64,000 bases of DNA, from positions 5,652,001 to 5,716,000 of the forward strand of contig NC_053046.1 in the NCBI RefSeq assembly GCF_003473485.1, in the 5' to 3' direction. The notes under the pieces were generated by a model. That model saw only the letters and a list, made by a program, of their open reading frames with translations, searched no databases and was not told the origin of the DNA. This stretch comes from Medicago truncatula. Its lineage: Eukaryota > Streptophyta > Magnoliopsida > Fabales > Fabaceae. A program made the translations under genes and the position numbers. Numbering within the stretch: position 1 is the stretch's first letter; every line of letters starts with the position of its first letter. Below, piece by piece: positions 5,740 to 33,872 of the stretch.

Positions 5740-6938
5740 CAAGGTTTTACTACTCAAGAGTTTACCTCAACTCGTTTTACCTAGGTAAACTCGACTCATA
5801 AACTCGTACGAGTTTACCTAAAATTGAAATTGTATACAATTTATTATATGAATGACATATGTAAGCTAATATAATATTGTAAAAAGATCAATAATAAAAA
5901 ATATAGACTTAATTATAAATGCAAAGCATACCAAACCACCATAAAAAAGTGGTATGCTTAACTTAGTATCAAAATAGAAAAATTAACTCACAAAAGCATA
6001 AGTTTCATAAGTCTCTAACAACCCATCCCAAAAAGCAAGTTTCACAAGTTTCTAAACTTGAGAATAAAACTATCAAAAAAACAAATTAGGTAATTTCTTC
6101 AAAAGGTCAATCTTCTAAAGTTCCATAACATCATTCTCATCTATGTCTTCATCTCCATCTAAATCAAATTCTTCTCCAAATGATAAAGGGTCTTCAATAT
6201 TAGAACCAAACACATGTCTTGCACTCACTTCAACATCAATAGGCAGCTGCACATTCTCACCAACATCATTATGATCAAGACCAGCAGTGCTAGTTAGAAA
6301 CTCATCATCAGATTCAATATCAACAAATTCAAATGGTTCCCTCTTTCTTGTTTCTTTCCTTGTTAACCTCATATTGGGCATCACATAAACCAAATCATTC
6401 ATTTTCTGTTGGCGTAATCGGTTATTTATTATTATTTTTTTTTTTGTATGAAGCTTGAAAAACAACAACAAACACAACTAACAACATACAAACACCACCA
6501 CCACAACCCTAACGTCGGAATCGTAATCGAAATTTCAACCGTCGGAAACGGAATTTCCAATTTTCCACCGTCGGAACTCGGAACCTAACATTTCATTTGT
6601 GAATGTGCTCCCTTATTCTTGAGAACTCCTAGAAAATGAAACGTTTCACTTCAAAGCTGAAATGTCCGTTATTGTAAAGCTAGAAAGTAGAAATTTTTCA
6701 TTTGGGCTTGAAAATAATGGGCCGAAAAAAAGGGCCAATTTTTTATTTTATTTTTGAGGAGTAAACTCGTAAACTCGGCCGATTTTACACGAGTTTACTG
6801 AGTGTTAACTCGGTCAAACTCGTCAAACTTTTCAATTTCACCAGAAATCGAGTTTACCTCCGAGTTAACACGATTTTGGTACCTAAACACGTAAAATCGA
6901 TAAACTCGAAGTGTTAACACTCGATTTGCGGAACATTG
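5740..6938. mobile_element. Non-autonomous hAT-like element with subterminal repeats
   Basis: Both ends are packed with a short motif in either orientation (ACTCGTAAACTCG / GAGTTTACC: 5751-5825 and 6765-6925), as in hAT transposase-binding subterminal regions. The termini CAAGGTTTTACTACTCAAG and, reversed, CAATGTTCCGCAAATCGAG match moderately. The flanks give an 8-bp duplication with two differences: AAACCATC at 5732-5739 and GAACCACC at 6939-6946. Eight-base duplications are the hAT hallmark. A remnant of the transposase C-terminus lies inside on the minus strand. Confidence 0.6.
6115..6477 (-). pseudogene. C-terminal remnant of a hAT transposase
   Basis: The minus-strand frame encodes about 120 residues. 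The part from about residue 27 (NDLVYVMPNMRL, then FEFVDIESDDEFLT) resembles the acidic tail that follows the dimerization domain in plant hAT transposases, and it ends in a run of Asp and Glu. The DDE catalytic core and BED zinc finger are absent, and the first 25 residues look like non-coding read-through. It lies between the hAT-like subterminal repeats, so it is an internal-deletion product that cannot transpose by itself. The assignment rests on recognising the tail pattern only. Confidence 0.5.
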
Positions 6939-18087: not shown

Positions 18088-20215
18088 ATGCTGCATGTCT
18101 CCATTTTTATTTATTGACTGGGCTTGAACTCTATCTGAAATTGAGTATTTTTTGCCATAGGTTTGCGACATTAGTTTAACTTGAATTTAAGAGGATCAAA
18201 CTCTTAAACACATGAACTCCTCTATTGCATTCTTAGTTTTGGGTTTGAACTCAAACAAAGTAGGGATTTGTGGCTACCTATACTACTTTTGTCTGAGTCG
18301 TAGACTGGATTTTCTAGTTTAGTAGGATAGTAAAATTCATATTGCAGAATATATAGTTGGTGACACGAGGTCATATTTTGATTGTCTCCTTCCTCGTTTA
18401 AGCTCAACACGGAGATAACTTGTATGAAGATGGGGTGAGTGATACCATAGAGATAGATTGAATACAAATTTCCAACAAAGGAGTTTAACTTTATCATAGA
18501 AGGTAAAACAGATCTCCATGGAGAAGCCTATTAGGCTATGTGAAAAAGAGTACACGAGGATGGCCATGCAAAAACATGAAGAAGATGCGGTTGAAATTAC
18601 CACTGCAGATACCTCTAGGAATTTTATATTGCAGCCGCAATTGCATTTGCAGACTACAATTTAATTGTATTATCTAAGTATTCTGACAAAAAAATTATAG
18701 GTATACGAACTTCATCGTTTGTACAAGTTCAGAAGATATCAATCATAAATATGGAAGAAAGTAAATCAGCTAGGAAGGAACTTATGGAATGTGATTGGTT
18801 AATTAAAATTGTCATCATAAAAGTCCACAGAATCAATTGCATCAGGTTACAATTGCATCAGAGTTGAGACACCACTAACTAGTTCTAATTCACAACATTG
18901 CTTGTCTTAAGATGATTCATCATAGGAGTGGCACCCTTCATAACTTACGAGTATATTGTTAGAAAATATATATTGTGGGTGCTAGTGGTACAATGGTTAG
19001 TAGCATTGGACAAGAAGACACACATTGATAAATAGCTCATTGTAGAAGGAGAGAATATAGTATATGGAAGCCCTTAATATATTGTAATTGTATTTAAATG
19101 TTTAAATACAATCGCACCCATATAATTCTATTTATAAGTGATTGAAGATGTTTCTAAAACTAGAAGAGTCTAGGCCTTTGTTTTCCGTTTCTACATTAGA
19201 TTATTATAGATGTTTCTAGGCTACAATTTAATTTAGACATTAATAGAACAATCTAAAACATGTAGCAACTTTAAGCTACTCTAGTTTCTCTGATCAGACA
19301 TTGTCATTTTTTAACTAGAATATTCTAAAAATATGTATCAATTTCAAAACTCATCCTTGATGCACATTTCAAAAACTCCAAATTAATGTAGTATGTAGTT
19401 GCTCAATCATAGATTTTTGATATCATCTTGTCATGCATTGCTTTTTATGGTTGATCAATTTGACAAGTGTTACCTCCACCGTGATAGTAAATTTGTGTCA
19501 CTTCTTGTCATAATATTTGTTATCGGTCTCCTTTCCAATCTTGTTGAAGACTTCCAATAATGGTCATTCTTGCTCATTAGTTGCTCTAGTAATTTTCCTT
19601 GCGAGTCTCCTTGTCACTTTTGTTGAAGAATCTTGTTAGGAACTCACTCTTGCTTACATTTTTCTTCCTAGACTTGTACTCAAGTTAAGCATCAGAGGCT
19701 GCATGTCTCCATTTTTATTTATTGACCGGGCTTGTACTCTATTTGAAATTGAGTCTTTTTTGCCATAGGTTTGGGACATTAGTTTAACTTGAATTTAAGA
19801 GGATCAAACTCTTAAACACCTGAACTCCTCTATTGCATTCTTAGTTTTGGGTTTGAACTCAAACAAAGTAGGAACCTGTGGCTACCTATATTACTTTTGT
19901 CTGAGTCGTAGACTGAATTTTCTAGTTTAGTAGGATAGTAAAATTCATATTGCAGAATATATAGTTGGTGACACGAGGTCATATTTTGCTACGCTAGTGA
20001 ATAACCGAACATGGCTCTGATAGAACTGTTAGAAAATATATAGTGTGGAAGCAAGTTGTAGAGTGGTATGTGGCATTGGACAAGAAGGCACACATTGGTA
20101 ATTAATTTATTGTAGGAGGAGAGAATATGATACAGGGAAGCCCTCAATATTATTGTCATTGTATTTAAAAGCTTGAATACAATTGCACCCATATAAGTCT
20201 ATAGGTGCTTGAAGA
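18088..20215 (-). mobile_element. Duplicated fragments of a copia-like LTR element
   Basis: Two blocks occur twice in the same order. Block A is 18088-18379 and 19698-19987 (about 290 bp, very similar). Block B is 18956-19153 and 20029-20215 (starting TGTTAGAAAATATATA). Upstream of the second block B, ATGGCTCTGATAGAACTGTTAG at 20011-20032 reads on the minus strand as an LTR end (...CTAACA) followed by TATCAGAGCC, which is the tRNA-Met primer site of Ty1/copia elements. Block B therefore looks like an LTR portion and A like adjacent internal sequence. No intact gag or pol frame remains. Confidence 0.5.
20012..20022 (-). other. Probable tRNA-Met primer binding site
   Basis: On the minus strand TATCAGAGCCA follows CTAACAGTTC. 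TGGTATCAGAGC is the usual plant copia primer site, and the match here is partial. Confidence 0.45.
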
Positions 20216-21010
20216 TGTTTTGTGGATGTTGCTGTAAATTTTTATTCCTAGTTTAATCGTGATGGGTTTCGATGATTATATCTTGTATAATGTACATGCT
20301 TTTATGATTGACAAAAACCATTAATTGTAATCCTCAAGAAAAAAAAAACTATTCGTTGACAATTTTTTTTTTGACAAACTATTCGTTGACAATGTTTCCT
20401 TCGTTTTCCATCAAAAAATTTCCATCTTATATTTAACTCATTCATGTATGTAAAATTACCATTCCCACTTAAACATTTTTTATGCATTTTTTTCTGCACA
20501 ACCGTTAACCAAATAAAACATTGTTCTAAAGTAAGTTATAATCTAGAAATGAAACTATATACTGGACAATGATTGAGATTTCTACTTTTCTATCTAGGTT
20601 TTTGGTAGAAAGAGAATTTCATTTATTCTTTCACATATTATGTCATGGCATGTTGCTATAATTCATTTTATACAATTATATGCCCCTTATATATGTGACC
20701 TGCATTTAAAACGATCATAACAATGACTAGGGATAATCAGCAAAAAGTAACTATTTGTAAAAAAAAAAAAAAAAACAGCAAAAATAGCTAAACAAAATTT
20801 AATGAAACAATGAGTGATAGTGTGAATATGACCAGGTGCACACATGAGATCATAAAACTTAAGTGGGTCAAGTAGTCAAGGGATATTACATCTTCCTAAA
20901 GATAGATATATTTAAATTTTAAAATGAGGTGATTGCTTGTAAACCATTCGGATCGCTTAACCTATGAAATAAATTGATTGTTGGATACATACCGATTAAA
21001 AAAACAACAA
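20216..21010. other. Intergenic region, no gene seen
   Basis: Contains a short duplicated word (AAACTATTCGTTGACAAT near 20345 and 20377) and an A tract at 20759-20775. No coding signal was found. Confidence 0.45.
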
Positions 21011-21794
21011 TAAGGGGGTGTTTTTTTGAGGGTTACAAAATTTATTCCCAGGAATTAACTTACCCAGGAATGTAAAGGGGAAATTTTTATTCCCAGGAAA
21101 ATACAGAAAAAAGTGTTTGGTTAATTGTGTAATTCCTGGGAACTTCTTTTAAAATAATTCCAAGGAATAGAAAAAATATGTTTGGCTGCAAGGTAGAAAA
21201 CCTTGGAATAAACATTATAATTACACAAATGCCCTTATTATATAAACCATAAATCTAACGTGTGTACCATGCTCTCCTTCACTTCTAAACCATTATTTTT
21301 TAATAAATTGATTATTGTTCATGTGTAGACACAAAAAATGTTCAAAATTTTAAATAGAAAAGTAAGTAAATTAAAATTTGAATTTGAATCAAAATTAAGT
21401 GAAGATAAGAAAATACAAATTTGTGGGATCAAGTATAGAGTTGCTTATTGTTAATCACCGTTGAAGTAAAATTGATTGAGGTTGTTTAGAAATTGCTTAA
21501 ATAGAATCCCGCAAGTGGATGGTTGGATTGAACATCTCATATTAGTCGTCCATCCTAGACCGAACATCGAGGTTTCAAAACAAAAAAATATTGGATCTTC
21601 AAGTTCAATGCCAGTGGAACTTATTTATACATAGTAAAATAAAAAAGAGTGGTAAGGAAAAAGAAACTATTGGAAACAACAAAAATGACTCAATTATTAT
21701 ATATGCAATTACTTTTGCAATGACTCAATAAAGATAGTGTTCATCCCTCATCCATCCACTACTATGATGAATAAACATCACAGTATATAGAGAG

Positions 21795-22125
21795 TGGTGT
21801 GCAGCCCAAGTCCATTGTAGGGTCCTTGACCACAACATGCTATCTGTGATGTAACAAATCCTGCATATATAACCAATACTTTTTTTATAAGAAGGTAATA
21901 TTACCATAAATTTAATAGTTATGCTACCATTATATTGTATATTAAATTACTCTATATCATATGAATATGATTAGTATAGTTACCATATGCTTGAGGATTA
22001 TTGACGAAGTCAAGGGCCATTTGCCTTGTGTTGGCTCCCATGAATACATTTGAACCAATTTCATTGTTGAGTTCTTGAATTATTTGAATAAGTTGTGGAT
22101 TGAACAAAGCTGCTGCACGTTGTAG
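21795..22125 (-). pseudogene. Captured GDSL esterase/lipase fragment, intron retained
   Basis: On the minus strand two exon pieces, about 22125-21984 and 21860-21795, flank a 123-bp GT-AG intron (21983-21861). Joined, they read [10 protein letters not shown]..., [12 protein letters not shown]..., NNPQAYG / [19 protein letters not shown]. This is the conserved C-terminal part of plant GDSL lipases of the LTL1/At5g33370 type (from memory). The frame stops upstream at 22126-22128, and after GLGL it becomes degenerate, with a stop soon after. The active-site Ser (GDS block) and the His-Asp end are missing, so it is not an enzyme. It lies wholly inside the PIF/Harbinger termini, and the retained intron indicates copying at the DNA level. 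Confidence 0.75.
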
Positions 22126-22207
22126 TTATGCTAGCAAAACTTGATACAATGTTCTAGTTCATGTCAATAAAAGAGAAATGACTAACTTGTTTTTTATGAC
22201 TTTTATT

Positions 22208-22978
22208 GTTAGGATCTTTATCTTCTTCTCGTGCACAGCTCGATCTTTTGGAGCAATTTACATCTACAAGCTCATCAGTCACTGGTATGCAATCTTTAAA
22301 TCAGAATCAATGAAAATGTTTAGTAGAGAAAAACAAATTGTTCAATGGTTTTGCAAATCTCCAAAGTGATGCAAAGTGATTCATATCATTGAAAATTTAA
22401 GTGATATAAGAAACATGGTATGATAATATATATATACCAGAGAATGAATCCCTGGTTTCAAAACTTTACATTACCTTCACATGAAATTGGCATGTGTTAT
22501 AGCCCAAAATTAATGCCTATGAAGAGAAATATAGACACGTTGTTCGTATCAAATAGTTAATTTCCTATTTCTTCCATACCCTGATCTCTATGTTCATGTG
22601 TCACTACTGATATGATATCGCACAGACTGATATGGGAGCATTTCTGGTTTCTAGGTTATGAAAGTGATGGCAGCTCTCAGCGACTTAGAATTCGGGAACA
22701 GCTTGAACAGTTGGTTGGAGAAAGGGATGATGATTTTAGCCTTCCCATAGGTAAAAACTTTAAAGAAAGTGAGTGCAACGTTCTTAACAACTTCACAAAG
22801 GAGAAATATCAAGAGACAGAGTTATCTAAATGAAGTGTCTCAAAGGAATGATTCAACTTTTTTTGCAACTATAGGAGCATTTGGGCTTCTTCCAGCTCGT
22901 AACAGGAAATCAGTTAGACTGAAAAAGCAGATAACAGAAAAAGCAGCTACTAGAAATCCAATATACTTAAGATATTGA
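22208..22978 (+). pseudogene. Second captured host-gene fragment, unidentified
   Basis: Plus-strand coding-like pieces with plausible splice borders: 22208-22284 (SSSRAQLDLLEQFTSTSSSVT), then from 22655 (acceptor TTTCTAG, in phase) GYESDGSSQRLRIREQLEQL..., GERDDDFSLPIGKNFKE. A one-base shift near 22770 leads into a second coding-like frame, NIKRQSYLNEVSQRNDSTFF then ATIGAFGLLPA, which ends at 22976. The composition is soluble and charged, then a hydrophobic start typical of a membrane segment. I do not recognise the parent gene. The frameshift and missing ends make it non-functional. It is inside the PIF/Harbinger element, in opposite orientation to the GDSL piece. Confidence 0.55.
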
Positions 22979-23824
22979 GGAAGGACAATATGCATCTAAC
23001 AGAAAAAGCAGTTACCAGAAAAAATATCAGAGATTACCAAGGATATTGAGGAAGGACAATATGCATCTTAGGATCTCACTCTAAGTCACTAACGAGCAAC
23101 CGGCCACGATTAGAAAAAGCAAAATCAAACATCTTCTAAAAGTCTGGCGACAATTAGACAAGGATTTTGAGATACAACCAAAATAGCACACAATGAACTT
23201 ATCCTCAAATGGCTTGCTGCACTTGAATTACTCCTAGGCGAAACGAAAACAAACAAGACAAGCCCTCCACCTCAATTTAGAAACCACCAAAATATCGACC
23301 ACAAATCTGAGCTACATAATATCAAAAATCTAGCGAATTCTATCAGCAGAAGCTGCTAATAATTGCCACTGTCCAGAAGGAAAAAATACTAGAAATAACA
23401 TGGCATCAATTAGATAGTGTGAACCAAGACACCTGCACACTGCAAAATCATCGAAACTCTGACATTTAAGCTGTAATAAAAAAAACACTCTGCAGCAAAC
23501 AAACATCAGAATAACACAAGACGTCAACAGACACTAGCACATCAGAAAACTCTCTGCAGCAAAAAAACATCAACAAAAACCACAACACAACAATGTTAAA
23601 GACAAAAAGTGAGAACAAAAATCATAAACAAGAAATTAAAGACAATGTCTTTAAATAAATTAAAGAAATTACGCTTTCTTATAAATAAATTCAAAGGATA
23701 ATTAAGGTCATTACACAACTACTAAAGACCATAATACGAATACAACTAAATAATAAAAGGAATTAAAGACAGTGGCTACTGAGTTTTTTTTACCAAATTC
23801 AAAAAGCGTAGAACATTCTAAATT
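22979..23824. other. Non-coding part of the PIF/Harbinger element
   Basis: A 36-bp direct repeat (AGATATTGAGGAAGGACAAT at about 22970 and 23042) and AC-rich sequence lie between the captured fragment and the Myb-like ORF. It probably includes the 3' UTR of the minus-strand transcript. Confidence 0.4.
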
Positions 23825-24905
23825 CTACCTAGAACCATTGTTACTCAAAACAATGTCCACAAACCGCTTCCTCAATCCAGGAGTATCCATTGTGAAAAAA
23901 TAGTCGCAAAGATTATTGTCTTTGGTGATAAGCATACCAGCCATTACCACTTCTGCATCAGACAATCCTTCAATTTCTTTTAAAATAGAGACAATTTGGT
24001 TCCTCCTATCAGCTGTGTGTTTTTCGTGCACAAAACAAGAAGTAAAGACTTGTTTCATATTCTCAACACCATTAGCATAAATCTCACCCAATTTGTTCAA
24101 TGAATTTGACATGCTATCAGAAGCATCATCATTATACTTCACCCTTTTTCCCCCACGCTTTCCGGTCCTATGATTAGTAGAATCACGTGGAGGTTGGTTT
24201 GTTAGATTTGATCCCGGAGCAGTAGTGTTAGCTGCGGGTGTTTCTGGCACCTGCGACTCAAAATTCTCATCATCATAATTCAAATTAATTCTTGATCCGC
24301 CCTCTTGTGTTGATTGAACATTTTCCTTCTCCATCTCAATGGTCATATCAATGATATCTTCTGTTACACTACCATCTGCTTTATCTTTTCCAAATACAGT
24401 ATCCAAGCTATCATAGTGTGGAAATGGTTTTTTATACAAGCCAACTGCGGTAGGGTGAGACTGCGTTAAAGGAAAAAGTGTTTAGAAATATAAATTTAAT
24501 GCAATAAAAATTATCATGAATTTATCAATTGTGGAATAGTATATCTTATATTACCTTGCACCATTGACGATAAATCTCCTTCTCTACTATAATCATCTTT
24601 TCAGCATCATTCCACCCAAAACCACTTGCACCTGGACCCAACATATCTTTGATTGCAGAATATTGTCTTTTAAGCAGTTTCACTCTTGATTCAATATGCG
24701 GGGTAGCTTTTAGTGTGCAACCTGGGAACTTGCTGTGAATATATTTCTCCAACGCTTTAGTATACCCAGGTTTAAATGAGTTTGCATCAGCCTTCCAACC
24801 CTCGTCCACTATTTTCAACAAACCTTCCACTAATACTCCATCTTCTTCAGGAGTCCATTGTCGCTTTGTGATTCTAACATTTTGATTTTCAGCCGACCCG
24901 TCCAT
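23825..24905 (-). CDS. PIF/Harbinger Myb/SANT-like protein, 2 exons, 328 aa
   Basis: Exons 24905-24555 and 24460-23825, GT-AG intron of 94 bp, phase 0 at WCK/SHPTAVGLYKKPF. The N-terminal part (about residues 10-115) has the spaced tryptophans of a Myb/SANT-like DNA-binding domain (QWTPEEDGVLVEGL..GW, ending with the FGWNDA block). A central acidic and Asn-rich linker carries a basic patch (HRTGKRGGKRVKY). The C-terminal third is helical and ends LRKRFVDIVL. In PIF/Harbinger elements this protein helps bring the transposase to DNA and into the nucleus. It lies downstream of the transposase on the same strand, about 210 bp away. The frame is undamaged. Confidence 0.88.
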
Positions 24906-25112
24906 CTATTCAACAACTTAACAAGTGCGTGCATGTCAAAATATATAAGAAGAAACAATAAATAAAACAATATTACAATTACATATTTTACAAATAAAAG
25001 ATCATAAAAAGAAACAGATTTGATTAATAAAACTTTTAAATCAAAGTCAACAGTACACTGAAAATAAAAATTGCAATCAAATTGAAATGTCAAATAAAAA
25101 ACATGAAAATTT

Positions 25113-26399
25113 TCAATGATTTTCACCTCTCCACCTATTAAATATATCTAATGAAAAACTATCTCTCCATTGACTCCATGTCGTACTTGGCTCCACAATA
25201 GTTATCATGTCACCGGACATGACTTCATTAGAGAACTCATCATCTCCTAAATTCAATTCCAAAGGATCCAATGTCATTTCTTTGCGAATATGATTATGTA
25301 AAAGACAACAAGCTGCTATTATTCTTCCTTGAGTTTTTACAGGATAAAATGACTTCTCTCTCAATATAGCCCAACGTCCTTTCAAAAGTCCAAAACATCT
25401 TTCTATTACATTCCTAGCTGAAGAATGTTTCATATTGAAAAATTCTTTAGGGGTAGATGGTTGTAATCCATTCCTCCACTCACTAAGGTGATACCTTTGA
25501 CCTCTATAAGGAGTAAGAAATCCTTCTCCATTCATGTATCCAGCATCACATAAATAATAATACCCTATCATAAATAAAACAATAGTTAAAATCTATAAAC
25601 TATGCAAGACATGTTTTATTTTAATATTAATCTATGCTATTGTACCTTGAGGAACCTTTAAACCATTTGGTCGAGAAATAGCATCTCTAAGGACTCTAGA
25701 GTCAGCAGCTGATCCCTCCCAACCAGGCAAAACATATATGAATTGTAAATCTGGCGAGCATATACCTAACATATTTGTAGCTATCTCACCCTTCCTTGTC
25801 CTATATCTACTTTTGTCAGCTTCAGGCACATTGACCTTGATGTAGGTGCCATCAAGAGCTCCTAAACAATTTTTAAAGTATTTCCATCGTTCGTCTGTGT
25901 TGCCCTCCAAAATTGGTTTAGGTTGTTTTAACAATTCTTTATGACACTTCAAAACTGCCAATAATACATTACTGAAATGCCTACTAATTGTTTCACCAGA
26001 CCTAACAAATTGTCTTCTAATCATTCTATTCTTAACATGGTGTGCCAATATATGTAAAAACATAGCCACCAACTCCTCCACACACATGTGTCGAGTAGGA
26101 AGCAAACCACCAATAACTTGCAACATGTCACATAGTTTGTGGAAAGCAGCTCTATCCATCCTTGTATTTTCAAGGCAAGCCAAATCACTCATGTAAATAA
26201 TTCTACGAAAATGGACTTCTCTAACTAAACTTCTTTCATAAAAATTCCATGACCTTTTTCGCTTTTTCAAACGCTTACTTAACTCAAGGTAGCATAACAC
26301 AATTGTCATCAACATAAAGTAATTCAACATCTCCATATATATCATAAACATTGCTATAATTTTTTTCTTCCTGTCACGCATTTCCATCAAATGTGTCAT
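25113..26399 (-). CDS. PIF/Harbinger transposase, 2 exons, 401 aa
   Basis: Exons 26399-25646 and 25564-25113; the 81-bp intron has GT-AG borders and joins GLKVPQ to GYYYLCDAGY. The catalytic triad is complete: Asp183 in GALDGTYIKV, Asp258 in CDAGY and Glu306 in NVIERCFGLLKGRW, with 47 residues between the second Asp and Glu (DD47E), as known for the PIF group. The segment PGWEGSAADSRVLRDA is the conserved block between the first two. The N-terminal 60 residues are rich in Met and basic residues and may be partly untranslated; a later Met (for example 70 or 81) is possible. No stop or frameshift was found. The enzyme would excise and reinsert elements at TWA sites and could act on the related MITEs in this window. 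Confidence 0.93.
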
Positions 26400-27450
26400 G
26401 ATAAAAAGAAAAATTGCTGCAGGTCATAATACTTTATTAGAAAACAACTCATTTTCCATTAAATGTGTCATGATATAAGATGATTCAAACATAAAGATAT
26501 AAAAAACAACTCATTTTCCATAAACAAGAACAAGACAGTTCTAAGATTAGATAAGGTAGAAGGTTTTGTAACTATTTAACATGTCAAATTAACATAGTAT
26601 GATATAGTAAATGCTTATCTTCTATTTCAATTTGTTATTTTAAATGGAAAAAAATTGCAGGGTTGCAGGAAAGATCTATAAATCCTACTCATAGGCCAAA
26701 GATATTTTGTTTAACAGTACTCGTTACTTACTCACATAAACCATATAACCAGGGAAAAATAACTCATGAATGTCTTCAGAAAATAAAAGAGGGGCTAAAA
26801 AAACACACAAGACTATAAAAGCATGCCTCTATAGTATCCACAGTTTCATACATAGTTACAATTTCATACACAATTACACACACCAAACATTAAAATATAA
26901 AAACCATAGAACAATAACCTAGTAGATTGATGCATTTGAAGACAATTCCAAGAAATAAAAAAAAAAAAACAGGATTGTTTGTCATGTATTATGCTTTTGG
27001 ATTTAGCTTTAGCCAAAAAACCTAATCATCATTGCACTTAATGTTGAATTATTATTACAAAACTACAAATATAGGAAAATCACAAACACAATAACCATGA
27101 TAATAATGACACCCACATTTCTTCCACAGGATCAAAATCATCAACAAGGTCAAACAAACCATTTTCGCTAAAAATTATTCAGGCATCTAAGCAATAAGCA
27201 GAAAAAGCAATAAGCAATGGAAGAATTGAGAAAAAGCAATAAGCTCAATCAGCAGAAAAAATTAGAGAAATTAGAGAAAAAGCAATAAGCAACAACAACA
27301 GAAAAAAAGAAGAGAAATTTTACCAATCACCAAATCTATGTTGAGTAATGGAAGAATTGAGATAAAATTAGATGGTACCTTGAAGAGAAGAGTGAAATCA
27401 AAAACTCAATCAGCAAGCAGTTGATGAACACACAAAGATCATGGGTTATC

Positions 27451-27459
27451 TTTTATATA
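27451..27459 (-). promoter_or_regulatory. TATA box of the PIF/Harbinger element
   Basis: On the minus strand CTATATAAAAG lies about 320 bp inside the right terminus. It is followed by a CT-rich leader and a potential 5' UTR splice donor (CTTCAAG/GTACC near 27380). The long distance to the transposase ATG (about 980 bp) suggests a leader intron. Confidence 0.5.
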
Positions 27460-27783
27460 GAAAAACATGGGTGAAAATGTTTAGCGGGAATCAGAGAAAG
27501 AATAGCGGGAATGACAAGGGCAAAAATGGTTTTTTATTGAAGATCATGGGTTTCAATTCCTGGGAATGAAACTTTCCCAAGCTATTTCATGGGAATAGAA
27601 TGGATGGAAAAAGGGTTGAACGTGGGGGGAAAATGGGGGAGAACGTGGGTTTACTACTTTCCTGGAAAAAATGTATTCCTGAGCATTTTTGTGTGGTTCC
27701 CATCTACCAAATAAAGAAATATTCAATTCCAGCCTTAGATTCCTAGGAATACATTTTCATTCCATGAAACAAACACACCCTAA

Positions 27784-30333: not shown

Positions 30334-33300
30334 TCAGGAAATAGAGTGTCGTCGATTCTTGTTTGGTTTTATTTTACCTTTAGCAGATACAATACCATCC
30401 AAACGTGGAAAAGGAGAAAGCTTCCCAAGTTTCTTTGAAACCGAACTTATAAACGATTTACGAGGTAGTGGAGGCTTATCAGCAGAATGAGAATGAGAAG
30501 GTGAAGCATTTGCAATAGGACTGTTAACCGTTGATTTTACTGTTGATTTAACAGTTGATTTAAGCGTGGAAATCTCGATCTCTTTTAGTTTCATTTTCAA
30601 CTTCACTACCTCTAATTTGAGGTCTTCATTTTCTCTTCGCAAGCTTGTAAGTTCATTTGAAACTTGAATATCACCTGAATATACATTTAGTTTGGTGTGA
30701 ATAGAAGGTGATTCTGCAGTTTCACTTCCATTCATTGCATCGCGAAGTCTTTGCTGTTCGTAATAGAGAACTTGGACAACAGTTTGGACTGGTAACCGGT
30801 CGTTTTGAGCTGCATGTGCACATGCTTCTCGTGATAATCTTTGACAGTCCATTATGCTGCAAACTTTCTTTCTCTCCATGTCACTTAAATTGGGATGAGC
30901 CTGAAAATTGTCAAATTTTAACTTTATTAGAAAGCAAGTAAAAAATTCGACATTAAAATCAAAATAGTAACACAGTTAAATAATTCATTTTGATTACATA
31001 CACTACAATAATACATGTTTGGAATGGACAGCAACGCATGTTTGTATAGTAACACATGTTTGGATTAGACAAGCAGAATCACAATGAGTCACCATAATTT
31101 TGCCAAAAACAACACAAACTTCACAAAATTACAATGCCACCATGATTTTTTGATTTTGTTAAACTCACTTACAATCCAAACATACAATACAATTATTTGA
31201 TGTAACGAATAAACTATGACAAAGATGAAGCTCAAGAGAATTATTTTAGGTAGTTATTATATTATCTTGATCAATAGAATGTGAAGACTTGTTTTATTGT
31301 TCCCACGTGAGGTATCCGAATACTCTCATAGTCACTGCACTTATGAATCTCGACCATTGGATAAAGATTTTTAGCTCGTACTTTGTGTTGTATTCATAAT
31401 CAATTTAATGATAGGAAAACACAAGCGGTCCGATCTTCATTCAATGGTCAAGATTCACAATTGTTGTAACTCGCAATCACAGATAATCTATTTCCATAGA
31501 GAGATAGGATGTAGAATTAGATGATTGTGAGATAATTCATATTCTAAGTAGTAGTTTTAAAACGGATTTGGTGAAATCAAAATATGAGTCATCCAATTTT
31601 CATCCGACTGAGATCTGTGTAGCTTTTGGAAAGTCATGGTAGGGTCATCTTGGTTCCAACATACTCACCGTGATACCAACACAAGCGAAATCTAGCTCTA
31701 GAAATGACTGCAATTTTTACCTTTAAATAGATTTTTTTAAATGGCAAAAACTTTATCAAATGACTACAATTTTACCTTTAAATAGATGTCTAAGGCTCTA
31801 TACATCCCATCTTCTGTAGGTTTTGATTGTTCAGGAATCAACTCAGCTAGACTGATGAACTTTGCAACTGATAAATTCCTGTCAGTTGCTATTTCAGCAA
31901 GATAGTTTTCCATTAGCTTTCCAACCCGTTCAATATCACTTTGTGGAGGAGAAAAATATTCATCATCACCATTATAGACAAAGTGGTTTCCAATTTGAGA
32001 TTCTTGGTAATTATTCATGATCCTTTGAACCGTGTCCACATCGAATAACGTGTCCCCGGTAAATGAATATGAAGGAATGAGAAGATCATCCAGAACAGCT
32101 TGTCCTAATTGCATTGCCATTCTTTTCTCCAAATCAAGCCTGCAAGCAACTGTTGTATCAAGATATATCGCTGCACGTAGCAGCATAGATAGAAAGCTTA
32201 CTGACATTGCATTCTTCTCTTTTGGTAATAGGCTCACTATTGTCTCTAAAATAACCCTCTTTTCATGCTCTTGTCTTGGTTCAATCTTCTTCCTTCCCTT
32301 TCCAAATATATCCTGCTCGAAAGAAAGAAAAAATTATTAAGAATTAAGGATTGAATCTCAAGAAAAGAAAAGCTAAGTTACAATGCTTTTGAGTGTATAA
32401 AGGTCTAATTAATGTTCGCATTTTTCAAAACATGTATCTTATATACTGCAATCATAGTAATTGTGTTCTTCTTTTCTTTTGCAAACAGGAGATTTCTACC
32501 TATGGAGCACCGACACAAATATGAAAATCATCACAACACTAACACATAGACACTCGTTAAATGTAATTATATGTGTCAGTGCGGGAAACAGACACAACTT
32601 GTGTCGGTGCTACATAGATCTCTACTCTATAAAAGCATATTTATTTTTAACTTTTCTATCCTTTTTTAGAGAGGGATCTCACCAAACCTCGTAGAGATTT
32701 CTGTGCATAGAGCATTAGAATAGGACCAATAGCAAACTGTTTAAACCCTCTAGCCATCATTGCTATTAGAACTCTTTGAAAAAGGTCAATTCTAAGAACA
32801 GTTAGATCTTCAGCCCACCAATCAACAACTGGTCTCTGTTGAGATGATACAGAAGACGACATCACTCCGTCGGAGCCACTTTCACTTCTTACAGATGTAC
32901 ACAATTGACTTTCGTTGCAAGCAATATAAGCAATTGCATCTATGCATTTGCTCACCAATTTTGTTTTCTCTGCTATTGGAAGAAGGCTTTCTGAAATATG
33001 TAAGATTGAAACAGAACCTGCAATGGTTTTTAGTGCTACATCATTCAAATATGCATCAGTTCTTGCCACCAAGTTCCCAACTGAATAATCTTCTGTCATC
33101 TCAAGATATTCGGCCACACATCGAAGCATAGCGATGTTTTCCACATTTATCTCGAAATTTATACCGTAGCAGAATTTTGCTGCTAGTTCAAATGCTTCTG
33201 CTCCACCAGGAACATCGGAGAGTTCAACAAAGGACACGTCCGAGTCATTAGATTCTGAGACGAGTTTCCGAATGTATCCACACTTGGAGACTAATGGATA

Positions 33301-33872
33301 CTGCAACGAATTTAATTCATACACACTGTCATATAAAGTTTTTTTGCACTTTTAATCAGTCATAAAAACATATGTAACATCTTGCTTTCAAATTCAAGTT
33401 ATATATTGAGACAGAAAGAAAAAAACATGACATGTTTTGTAACAAATAAACATTAACAATTGATTGACAAGTGACATCTTACAAGATTAAGAAATCATTA
33501 CTCTTCACTTGAATGATTCAAAGCAAATAAGTTTGATATATATTATATCTATGCAGCAAAGAGTCACTACCTTATGTAAAGTAAAGGAAGATTCACCAAT
33601 TTGGACATTGACATCACTTGGAATCTCCTGAGAAAAAATCCTATAATTAAGCAATACAACTCATTGGTTTCAGTTACTAAAATCCAACAAAAGTTAGCAA
33701 ACAAGAACATGCACAAGAAAAGTGTCAAGTACATTTGACATATATATACATAAACATAAAAAAAAATATACCAGTCACTTGTTCTTTTCATGGCACTAGA
33801 TAGAAGCTCTTGCTTCTTCACAGACAAGTCACTAGCAGATGTTGTAGTTTTGTCTAGACCACGATCCACCAT
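30334..33872 (-). CDS. BTB/POZ and NPH3 domain protein, 5 exons, 630 aa
   Basis: Exons on the minus strand: 33872-33772, 33640-33571, 33300-32683, 32312-31776 and 30900-30334, all GT-AG and in phase. The BTB/POZ domain runs about residues 37-140 (IPSDVNVQIGESSFTLHK, then YPLVSKCGYIRKL and FELAAKFCYGINFEI). The NPH3 domain spans about 205-475 (DWWAEDLTVLRIDLFQRV, ..PSYSFTGDTLFDVDTVQRI, GMYRALDIYLKAHP). A coiled coil lies near 515-550 (NELTSLRRENEDLKLEVVKL), and a basic Ser-rich tail ends RRHSIS. Family members are substrate adaptors for CUL3 ubiquitin ligases and act with phototropins or in auxin-related organ development. This one resembles the At5g67385/At1g03010-type proteins, from memory. 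Its length is normal for the family. Intron 3 holds a small MITE. Confidence 0.93.
32500..32616. mobile_element. Short MITE in NPH3 intron 3
   Basis: TATGGAGCACCGACAC at the left pairs with GTGTCGGTGCTACATA at the right. Flanks GATTTCTAC (32491-32499) and GATCTCTAC (32617-32625) form a 9-bp duplication with one difference, so a Mutator-like origin is likely. The same terminus occurs at 3908 and at 61209-61358. Confidence 0.7.

Follow-up and report, generated by a model that had tools for sequence, protein, structure and literature searches.

Our study identified a PIF/Harbinger transposon in which fragments of two unrelated host genes occupy part of the interval from the left terminus to the Myb ORF. 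The element lies in the 64,000-nucleotide stretch of Medicago truncatula DNA analysed here (the window, C5:5652001-5716000), and the genome searched is a single 429.9-Mb assembly of 42 contigs. The two fragments abut in opposite orientation, with fragment A on the minus strand and fragment B on the plus strand, as the preliminary description of this DNA had proposed when it read the arrangement as Pack-type capture and not as insertion beside the fragments. That reading holds: capture inside one mobile unit is confirmed, because a sister copy carries the same fragments, related empty sites lack them, the donor-like loci lie elsewhere and have, within 4.2-4.7 kb on either side, nothing that significantly matches the ends or core of the element, and the sibling elements, as far as viewed, have no such fragments. 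The chimaera very probably arose through rebuilding of the interior of an MtPH-A5-family copy, which was later transposed as one unit and is present in at least two copies.

Structure and classification of the element

The features of the element are collected in Table 1. We found in it a DDE transposase of the IS5/PIF type, a second ORF of the Myb/SANT-like type, TIRs and a 3-bp TAA target-site duplication (TSD), all of which are PIF/Harbinger characters, and the element fits a two-ORF transposon of the MtPH-A5 family. On the minus strand the transposase comes first and ORF1 follows, which is the MtPH-A5 arrangement, with the transposase upstream of orf1. Both the window copy and its sister at C7:13.58 Mb (the C7 copy; transposase exon 1 was compared from 26339 down) have open frames in all exons of the two genes, so the earlier statement that the host fragments sit in a copy still endowed with a transposase is borne out. 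One intron is evident by eye in the window transposase; two are printed for that of MtPH-A5-Ia (PMC2213677).

The left and right ends agree at 15 of their first 19 positions in the window element and at 16 of 19 in the C7 copy. Compared with the 21-bp MtPH-A5 TIR consensus as printed in PMC2213677, GGGKGYGTTTGTTTGAGGGTT, the left end of the C7 copy agrees at 21 of 21 positions, that of the window element at 20, and the right end of both copies at 17. Both ends were read in seven copies, and four of them (the window element, L039, L045 and L046) have TTA or TAA on both sides; elsewhere among these seven, the bases at the TSD position are AAA in L042, CTA or TAG in the C7 copy, and ambiguous in L047. 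Outside the element, similar stretches were seen by eye upstream of it at about 19001-19160 and 20070-20225 (window 19001-20230), which look like parts of a retroelement-type repeat, and an NPH3-family gene lies beyond it on the minus strand (31764-33351; Pfam NPH3 on two ORFs).

Table 1. Features of the chimaeric element, in window positions.
Feature	Position	Strand	Remarks
Left target-site duplication, TAA	21011..21013	.	Equals the TAA at 27781-27783; one copy at both related empty sites
Whole PIF/Harbinger element, MtPH-A5-like	21014..27780	- (both ORFs)	6,767 bp; TIRs and TSD, sister copy, empty sites
Left terminus, imperfect TIR and subterminal block	21014..21332	.	98% to the C7 copy
Captured fragment A, end of a GDSL lipase/esterase gene and 3' flank	21333..22125	-	Donor-like gene L017, C7:55.12 Mb
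Deletion site in the window copy, about 275 bp	21767..21788	.	DNA kept in the C7 copy and in donor A
Retained GDSL intron, 123 bp, GT..AG	21861..21983	-	
Captured fragment B, exon 2, intron and most of exon 3	22128..22901	+	Donor-like gene L016, C5:40.92 Mb
Retained fragment B intron, GT..AG	22285..22654	+	
Interior DNA from neither donor, partly like dispersed repeats	22902..23681	.	Genome search
Coding core common to sibling elements	23682..26441	-	95-96% to L039-L042
ORF1, two exons, Myb/SANT-like (Myb_DNA-bind_3)	23825..24905	-	Pfam 1.3e-10, exon 1
Transposase, DDE_Tnp_4	25113..26423	-	Exons about 26423-25647 and 25569-25113; Pfam 6.9e-08 and 1.2e-14
Right interior	26442..27231	.	Parts match sibling DNA and C5:13.667 Mb
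Right terminus with TIR	27232..27780	.	About 80-83% to L039, L040, L042 and L044
Right target-site duplication, TAA	27781..27783	.	Equals the left TAA

The captured fragments and their donor-like genes

Alignment of the two pieces to the genome, which the preliminary description had proposed as the way to the donors, led to donor-like loci at C7:55.12 Mb (GDSL) and C5:40.92 Mb. The segment 21795-22125 is exactly covered by the GDSL locus C7:55120211-55120540 (91%, E 1.6e-132). A query with 21795-22150 returned at least 10 matches: the window itself, the C7 element (99%), this GDSL locus over the first 331 bases of the query, and seven weaker partial matches (68-86%) that we take to be related GDSL genes. 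A second query, 21333-21767, returned at least 17: the window, the C7 element, the same GDSL locus (1-433, 85%) and 14 shorter partial matches (73-88%), which evidently mark a dispersed repeat in the GDSL 3' flank. Fragment A thus matches its donor-like gene in two blocks, at 84.5% (21333-21765) and 90.9% (21795-22125), with a K2P distance of 0.043-0.056 (0.048 and 0.054 over the two blocks). It is important to note that the divergences given here between fragments and donors count substitutions only, and that many small indels additionally separate them. The right end first proposed for the GDSL piece, 22125, stands; its left end is to be moved from 21795 to 21333, as the homology continues into the donor's 3' flank.

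On the minus strand, fragment A comprises part of an exon (21984-22125), the 123-bp intron, and part of the last exon. The GT..AG borders of this intron and the match to the donor locus, which is far beyond chance, bear out the original call of a minus-strand GDSL piece with its intron kept. The window copy is without most of the last GDSL exon; in the C7 copy, which keeps the lost 275 bp or so, the GDSL reading is open to its own stop and, when spliced, matches Pfam Lipase_GDSL at 2.3e-08 (1.5e-14 for the last two exons of the donor-like gene). A transposon-end-like motif, TTAGGGTGTGTTTGG, was seen by eye near position 5958 of the donor A locus (L017, minus strand), some 145 bp beyond the left breakpoint, and may either hint at how the capture happened or have arisen by chance.

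Fragment B matches C5:40922953-40923733 in two pieces, at about 86-86.9% and 95-95.2% (K2P 0.061). A query with 22200-22978 returned at least four matches, namely the window, a 99% copy at C7:13579546 and the two adjoining pieces at C5:40.92 Mb. On the plus strand, exon 2 occupies 22213-22284 and exon 3 22655-22901, and near 22760 both the window and the C7 copies have one base more than the donor, which breaks the frame. These observations agree with the early description of a second, plus-strand coding piece with one frameshift and intron borders. Its proposed extent to 22978 does not hold: the fragment ends at 22901, and 22902-23681 is other, partly repetitive sequence, for which the genome search gave at least 17 matches, full length in the window and C7 copies only and partial in 15 cases (69-88%) among the matches listed.

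The donor B locus reads as a gene with a predicted 178-aa protein, which has no match in Pfam or NCBIfam and no significant match in PDB; the lone PDB line (E 0.98) was taken as chance. Inspection by eye makes the product a candidate small membrane protein with a transit-peptide-like start, and we assume that it resembles an uncharacterised plastid membrane protein. Among the matches listed, no locus other than the two elements and the respective donor-like gene covers most of either fragment. Both fragments keep introns; therefore DNA, and not mRNA, was copied.

A sister copy and related empty sites

The sister copy (L015, 284-7307) matches window positions 21013-27782 in two blocks, at 98.9% and 98.4%. 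The suggestion that other copies be examined for the same fragments was rewarded here, since this element has both of them, the same left end, the same junction between A and B, and the same one-base insertion in B as the window copy.

A query that joined both flanks of the window element returned at least five matches, two of them the flanks themselves. Two sites, C5:21445014-21445183 (71%) and C3:35912719-35912873 (69%), cross the join with no gap and no insert; C3:50315492-50315579 (75%) also matches the flanks but has only 14 bases across the join. The corresponding query for the C7 copy returned at least 42 matches, mostly to a left-flank repeat or to an HSP70-like coding part, and an HSP70-like paralogue at C7:10792858 crosses that join at 88% overall, its alignment extending 14 bases to the left and containing a 4-base gap at that very point. 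We read the paralogous sites that cross the joined flanks as related empty sites, which have neither termini nor fragments. Given the fragments shared with the C7 copy and these empty sites, capture therefore came first and transposition after, and this order is firm.

The window and C7 copies differ at 57 of 6,706 aligned sites over seven blocks (about 0.0085). At a plant substitution rate of 6.5e-9 per site per year and with a fragment-to-donor distance of about 0.04-0.06, the capture would date very roughly to 4 million years ago and the split of the two copies to less than 1 million years ago.

The ATG of an HSP70-like ORF (L015:7308-10000, C7:13.585 Mb) lies 46 bp beyond the end of the sister element. 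The first 84 aa of this ORF match Pfam HSP70 at 5.9e-26, and its paralogue at C7:10.793 Mb has no insertion. Judging from its position, the element may affect the promoter or 5' UTR of this gene.

Sibling elements and the history of the core

The genome search with the transposase gave, among the 20 rows listed, six full-length copies at 96-100% (window, C7, C2, C8 twice and C1), three copies in two pieces at 82-87%, two broken copies and four weak matches. The copies other than that of the window, together with the four weak matches, constitute our comparison set of ten loci (L015 and L039-L047). Neither fragment was found in L039-L047, of which L040, L041, L043 and L044 were viewed without one end or part of the element; the sole fragment match there, 86 bases at 73% in L041, lies outside the element in a dispersed repeat.

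Four siblings, L039-L042, share with the window element the core at 95-96%, a right block at 82-83% (that of L041 lies outside the view) and a left block at about 86%. The latter spans about 21014-21261 and is 85.5-86.4% identical to L039, L041 and L042, with L040 matching in part (21097-21253). Of the left interior of the window element, no more than 84 bp recurs in any of theirs. The core of the window element is separated from theirs by a K2P distance of 0.042-0.047, and its non-coding part differs by 6.6-7.6%. The left ends of L039, L041 and L042 stand at a distance of 0.16-0.19, with about 16% differences (Fisher p 1.4e-4 to 2.9e-5 against the non-coding core); L040, with its incomplete left end, was excluded from this test, and L043-L047 lie outside the comparison. 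Between L039 and L042 the contrast is 2.5% in the non-coding core against 12.6% in the left ends (p 3.6e-8). Because the core, including its non-coding parts, is far more alike than the left ends, these sequences suggest that the coding core has been exchanged between element sublineages. Uneven mutation could account for part of the contrast.

The left interiors of these four siblings, whose transposases are 96-97% identical to that of the window, measure 1.7-2.7 kb and come in three partly overlapping arrangements (L040 with L042; L041; L039), and the three copies of the 82-87% subfamily have a left interior of only 481 bp. The content of L040 is wholly covered by L042, 964 of the 1,713 bases of L039 recur in L041, and 899 of the 2,538 bases of L041 recur in L042. 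The left interiors of L040 and L042 contain a 1.7-kb block that is matched at 94% by C7:30665444-30667135 (L051), a locus that has no match to the window element, and this block may be another acquired one. The left-interior blocks of L041 and L039 match scattered places, and none of the genome matches of the L042, L041 and L039 blocks was shown to be a gene.

A tentative and rather doubtful proposal is that the stretch separating the left subterminal block from ORF1 serves this family as a recurrent cargo bay, with the core repeatedly swapped between sublineages. The pairwise overlaps make fully independent contents less likely and therefore lower the odds of this proposal. If it were true, interrupted repair on ectopic templates would account for the shuffling of transposase cassettes as well as for the uptake of host genes, in copies that keep a transposase.

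In the right interior, 26483-27197 is 81% identical to sequence beside a host gene at C5:13.667 Mb (L048:2427-3093), a match that probably falls in the first intron of that gene. The segment 26968-27244 matches DNA to the left of the core in L041, L042, L043 and partly L040, which is the other side than in the window element. A third capture at 26483-27197 was considered and set aside, the 81% match being compatible with transfer either way. Within the 82-87% subfamily, L046 (C3:23.54 Mb) and L047 (C3:37.64 Mb) are 99.1% identical over 4.7 kb, which suggests recent movement of a second lineage.

Origin of the chimaera

At the junction of A and B the homology to either donor breaks off, leaving 2 unmatched bases in the middle, and no microhomology is visible. 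Pieces from two chromosomes thus abut inside an element whose core and ends seem to differ in history, and because of this we infer, with moderate confidence, that the chimaera formed by interrupted gap repair or by template switching. In this scheme, a strand begun in the element during repair or replication would have copied a piece of the GDSL gene and then a piece of the second gene on another chromosome, and copying would have ended in a coding core that resembles the present siblings more than the window element's own termini do. The ends would have stayed usable, and the chimaera would have transposed as a unit, leaving at least two copies. Both fragments presumably entered together. 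The divergences of A (0.043-0.056), B (0.061) and the core relative to the four siblings (0.042-0.047) are similar, but such equality is not proof of simultaneous entry. According to the 2007 study of Medicago elements of this type, these generally follow abortive gap repair (PMC2213677), and gap-filling and FoSTeST models have been described for animal Pack-TIRs (PMC8277862); a 2026 review states that DNA transposons might capture unlinked gene fragments by a still undiscovered mechanism (PMC13317346).

Under local hopping, two neighbouring elements trap the DNA between them and their outer ends then move as one unit, a process put forward for Pack-CACTA and with support in Pack-TYPE elements (PMC8903248). 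We consider it improbable here, as the fragments come from C7 and C5 and adjoin with no element sequence between them, and neither donor has a significant match to the element ends or core within 4.2-4.7 kb on either side (best E 0.004, 19 bases). Another possibility of low probability is that A and B were first joined elsewhere by an unrelated rearrangement and that the element took up the ready-made chimaera; their abutment without element DNA would be equally expected, but the matches listed contain no further locus at which A and B adjoin.

Retention of the fragments for a function, either as a chimaeric protein or as a regulatory RNA acting against the parent genes, is very unlikely, even though the GDSL frame of the C7 copy is open. 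A protein function of the cargo is in itself unlikely, judging from these frames, because B is frame-broken in both copies and the GDSL piece of the window copy is truncated. From orientation, read-through of the predicted ORF1 leftward into the cargo would be expected to yield RNA sense to GDSL and antisense to donor B. Finally, that the transposon merely landed beside pre-existing pseudogenes, with a left terminus belonging to another element, which the preliminary description had named as the outcome that would overturn capture, is excluded for practical purposes, since the sister copy at C7:13.58 Mb unites the same left end, fragments and core, and the related empty sites are without fragments.

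Comparison with known systems

Our results can be placed beside the printed account of MtPH-A5 (PMC2213677). The sibling L039 has exactly the 5,965 bp printed there for MtPH-A5-Ia, and the longest printed member (6,770 bp) differs from the window element by 3 bp in length and, judging from this, is likely to be the same element. The two MtPH-A5 copies known in 2007 were given as 72% alike overall and 95% alike in the coding region (PMC2213677); the captures would explain part of this difference, and core exchange fits it. The main text of that paper makes no mention of captured gene fragments or chimeric elements, and it is the present analysis that adds the captures, their donors, the sister copy and the empty sites.

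The preliminary description had held that capture is rarer in PIF/Harbinger elements and that a double capture would be notable. The capture is real, and a precedent exists in Pifvine-3 of grapevine (2008, PMC2528002), a PIF element with an extra 5' region of up to 3.5 kb beside its ORF1 and transposase regions. That region, like the cargo described here, matches host exons and introns, some of them common to several copies. Pifvine-3 belongs to another species and family, and its description in the text names no individual copies with an intact transposase and includes no opposite-strand pair of genes with donors, abutting junction and empty sites (PMC2528002). KI-MULE and the ULP-carrying MULEs likewise combine a host domain acquired by transduplication with coding regions of their own; they differ in belonging to the Mutator superfamily and in carrying one recurrent protease domain (PMC2528002, PMC13317346).

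Pack-PIF elements of maize and rice also have gene pieces between PIF termini, and one maize cluster subgroup has fragments of two genes (PMC8903248). As in Pack-TYPE elements, host gene fragments lie between the TIRs of the window element and have moved with them as a unit. Pack-TYPE elements are, however, defined as non-autonomous, a transposase match being taken as a mark of autonomy (PMC8903248), whereas the window element and its sister have open transposase and ORF1 frames; a pipeline that classes any transposase match as autonomous would miss the window element as Pack-TYPE. Capture of exons and introns by PIF elements was already known, and the double capture described here is a clear new example of it, in which donors, junctions, sister copy and empty sites of a transposase-bearing PIF/Harbinger element are well resolved in one genome. 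The case makes the model of capture by repair testable in a model legume.
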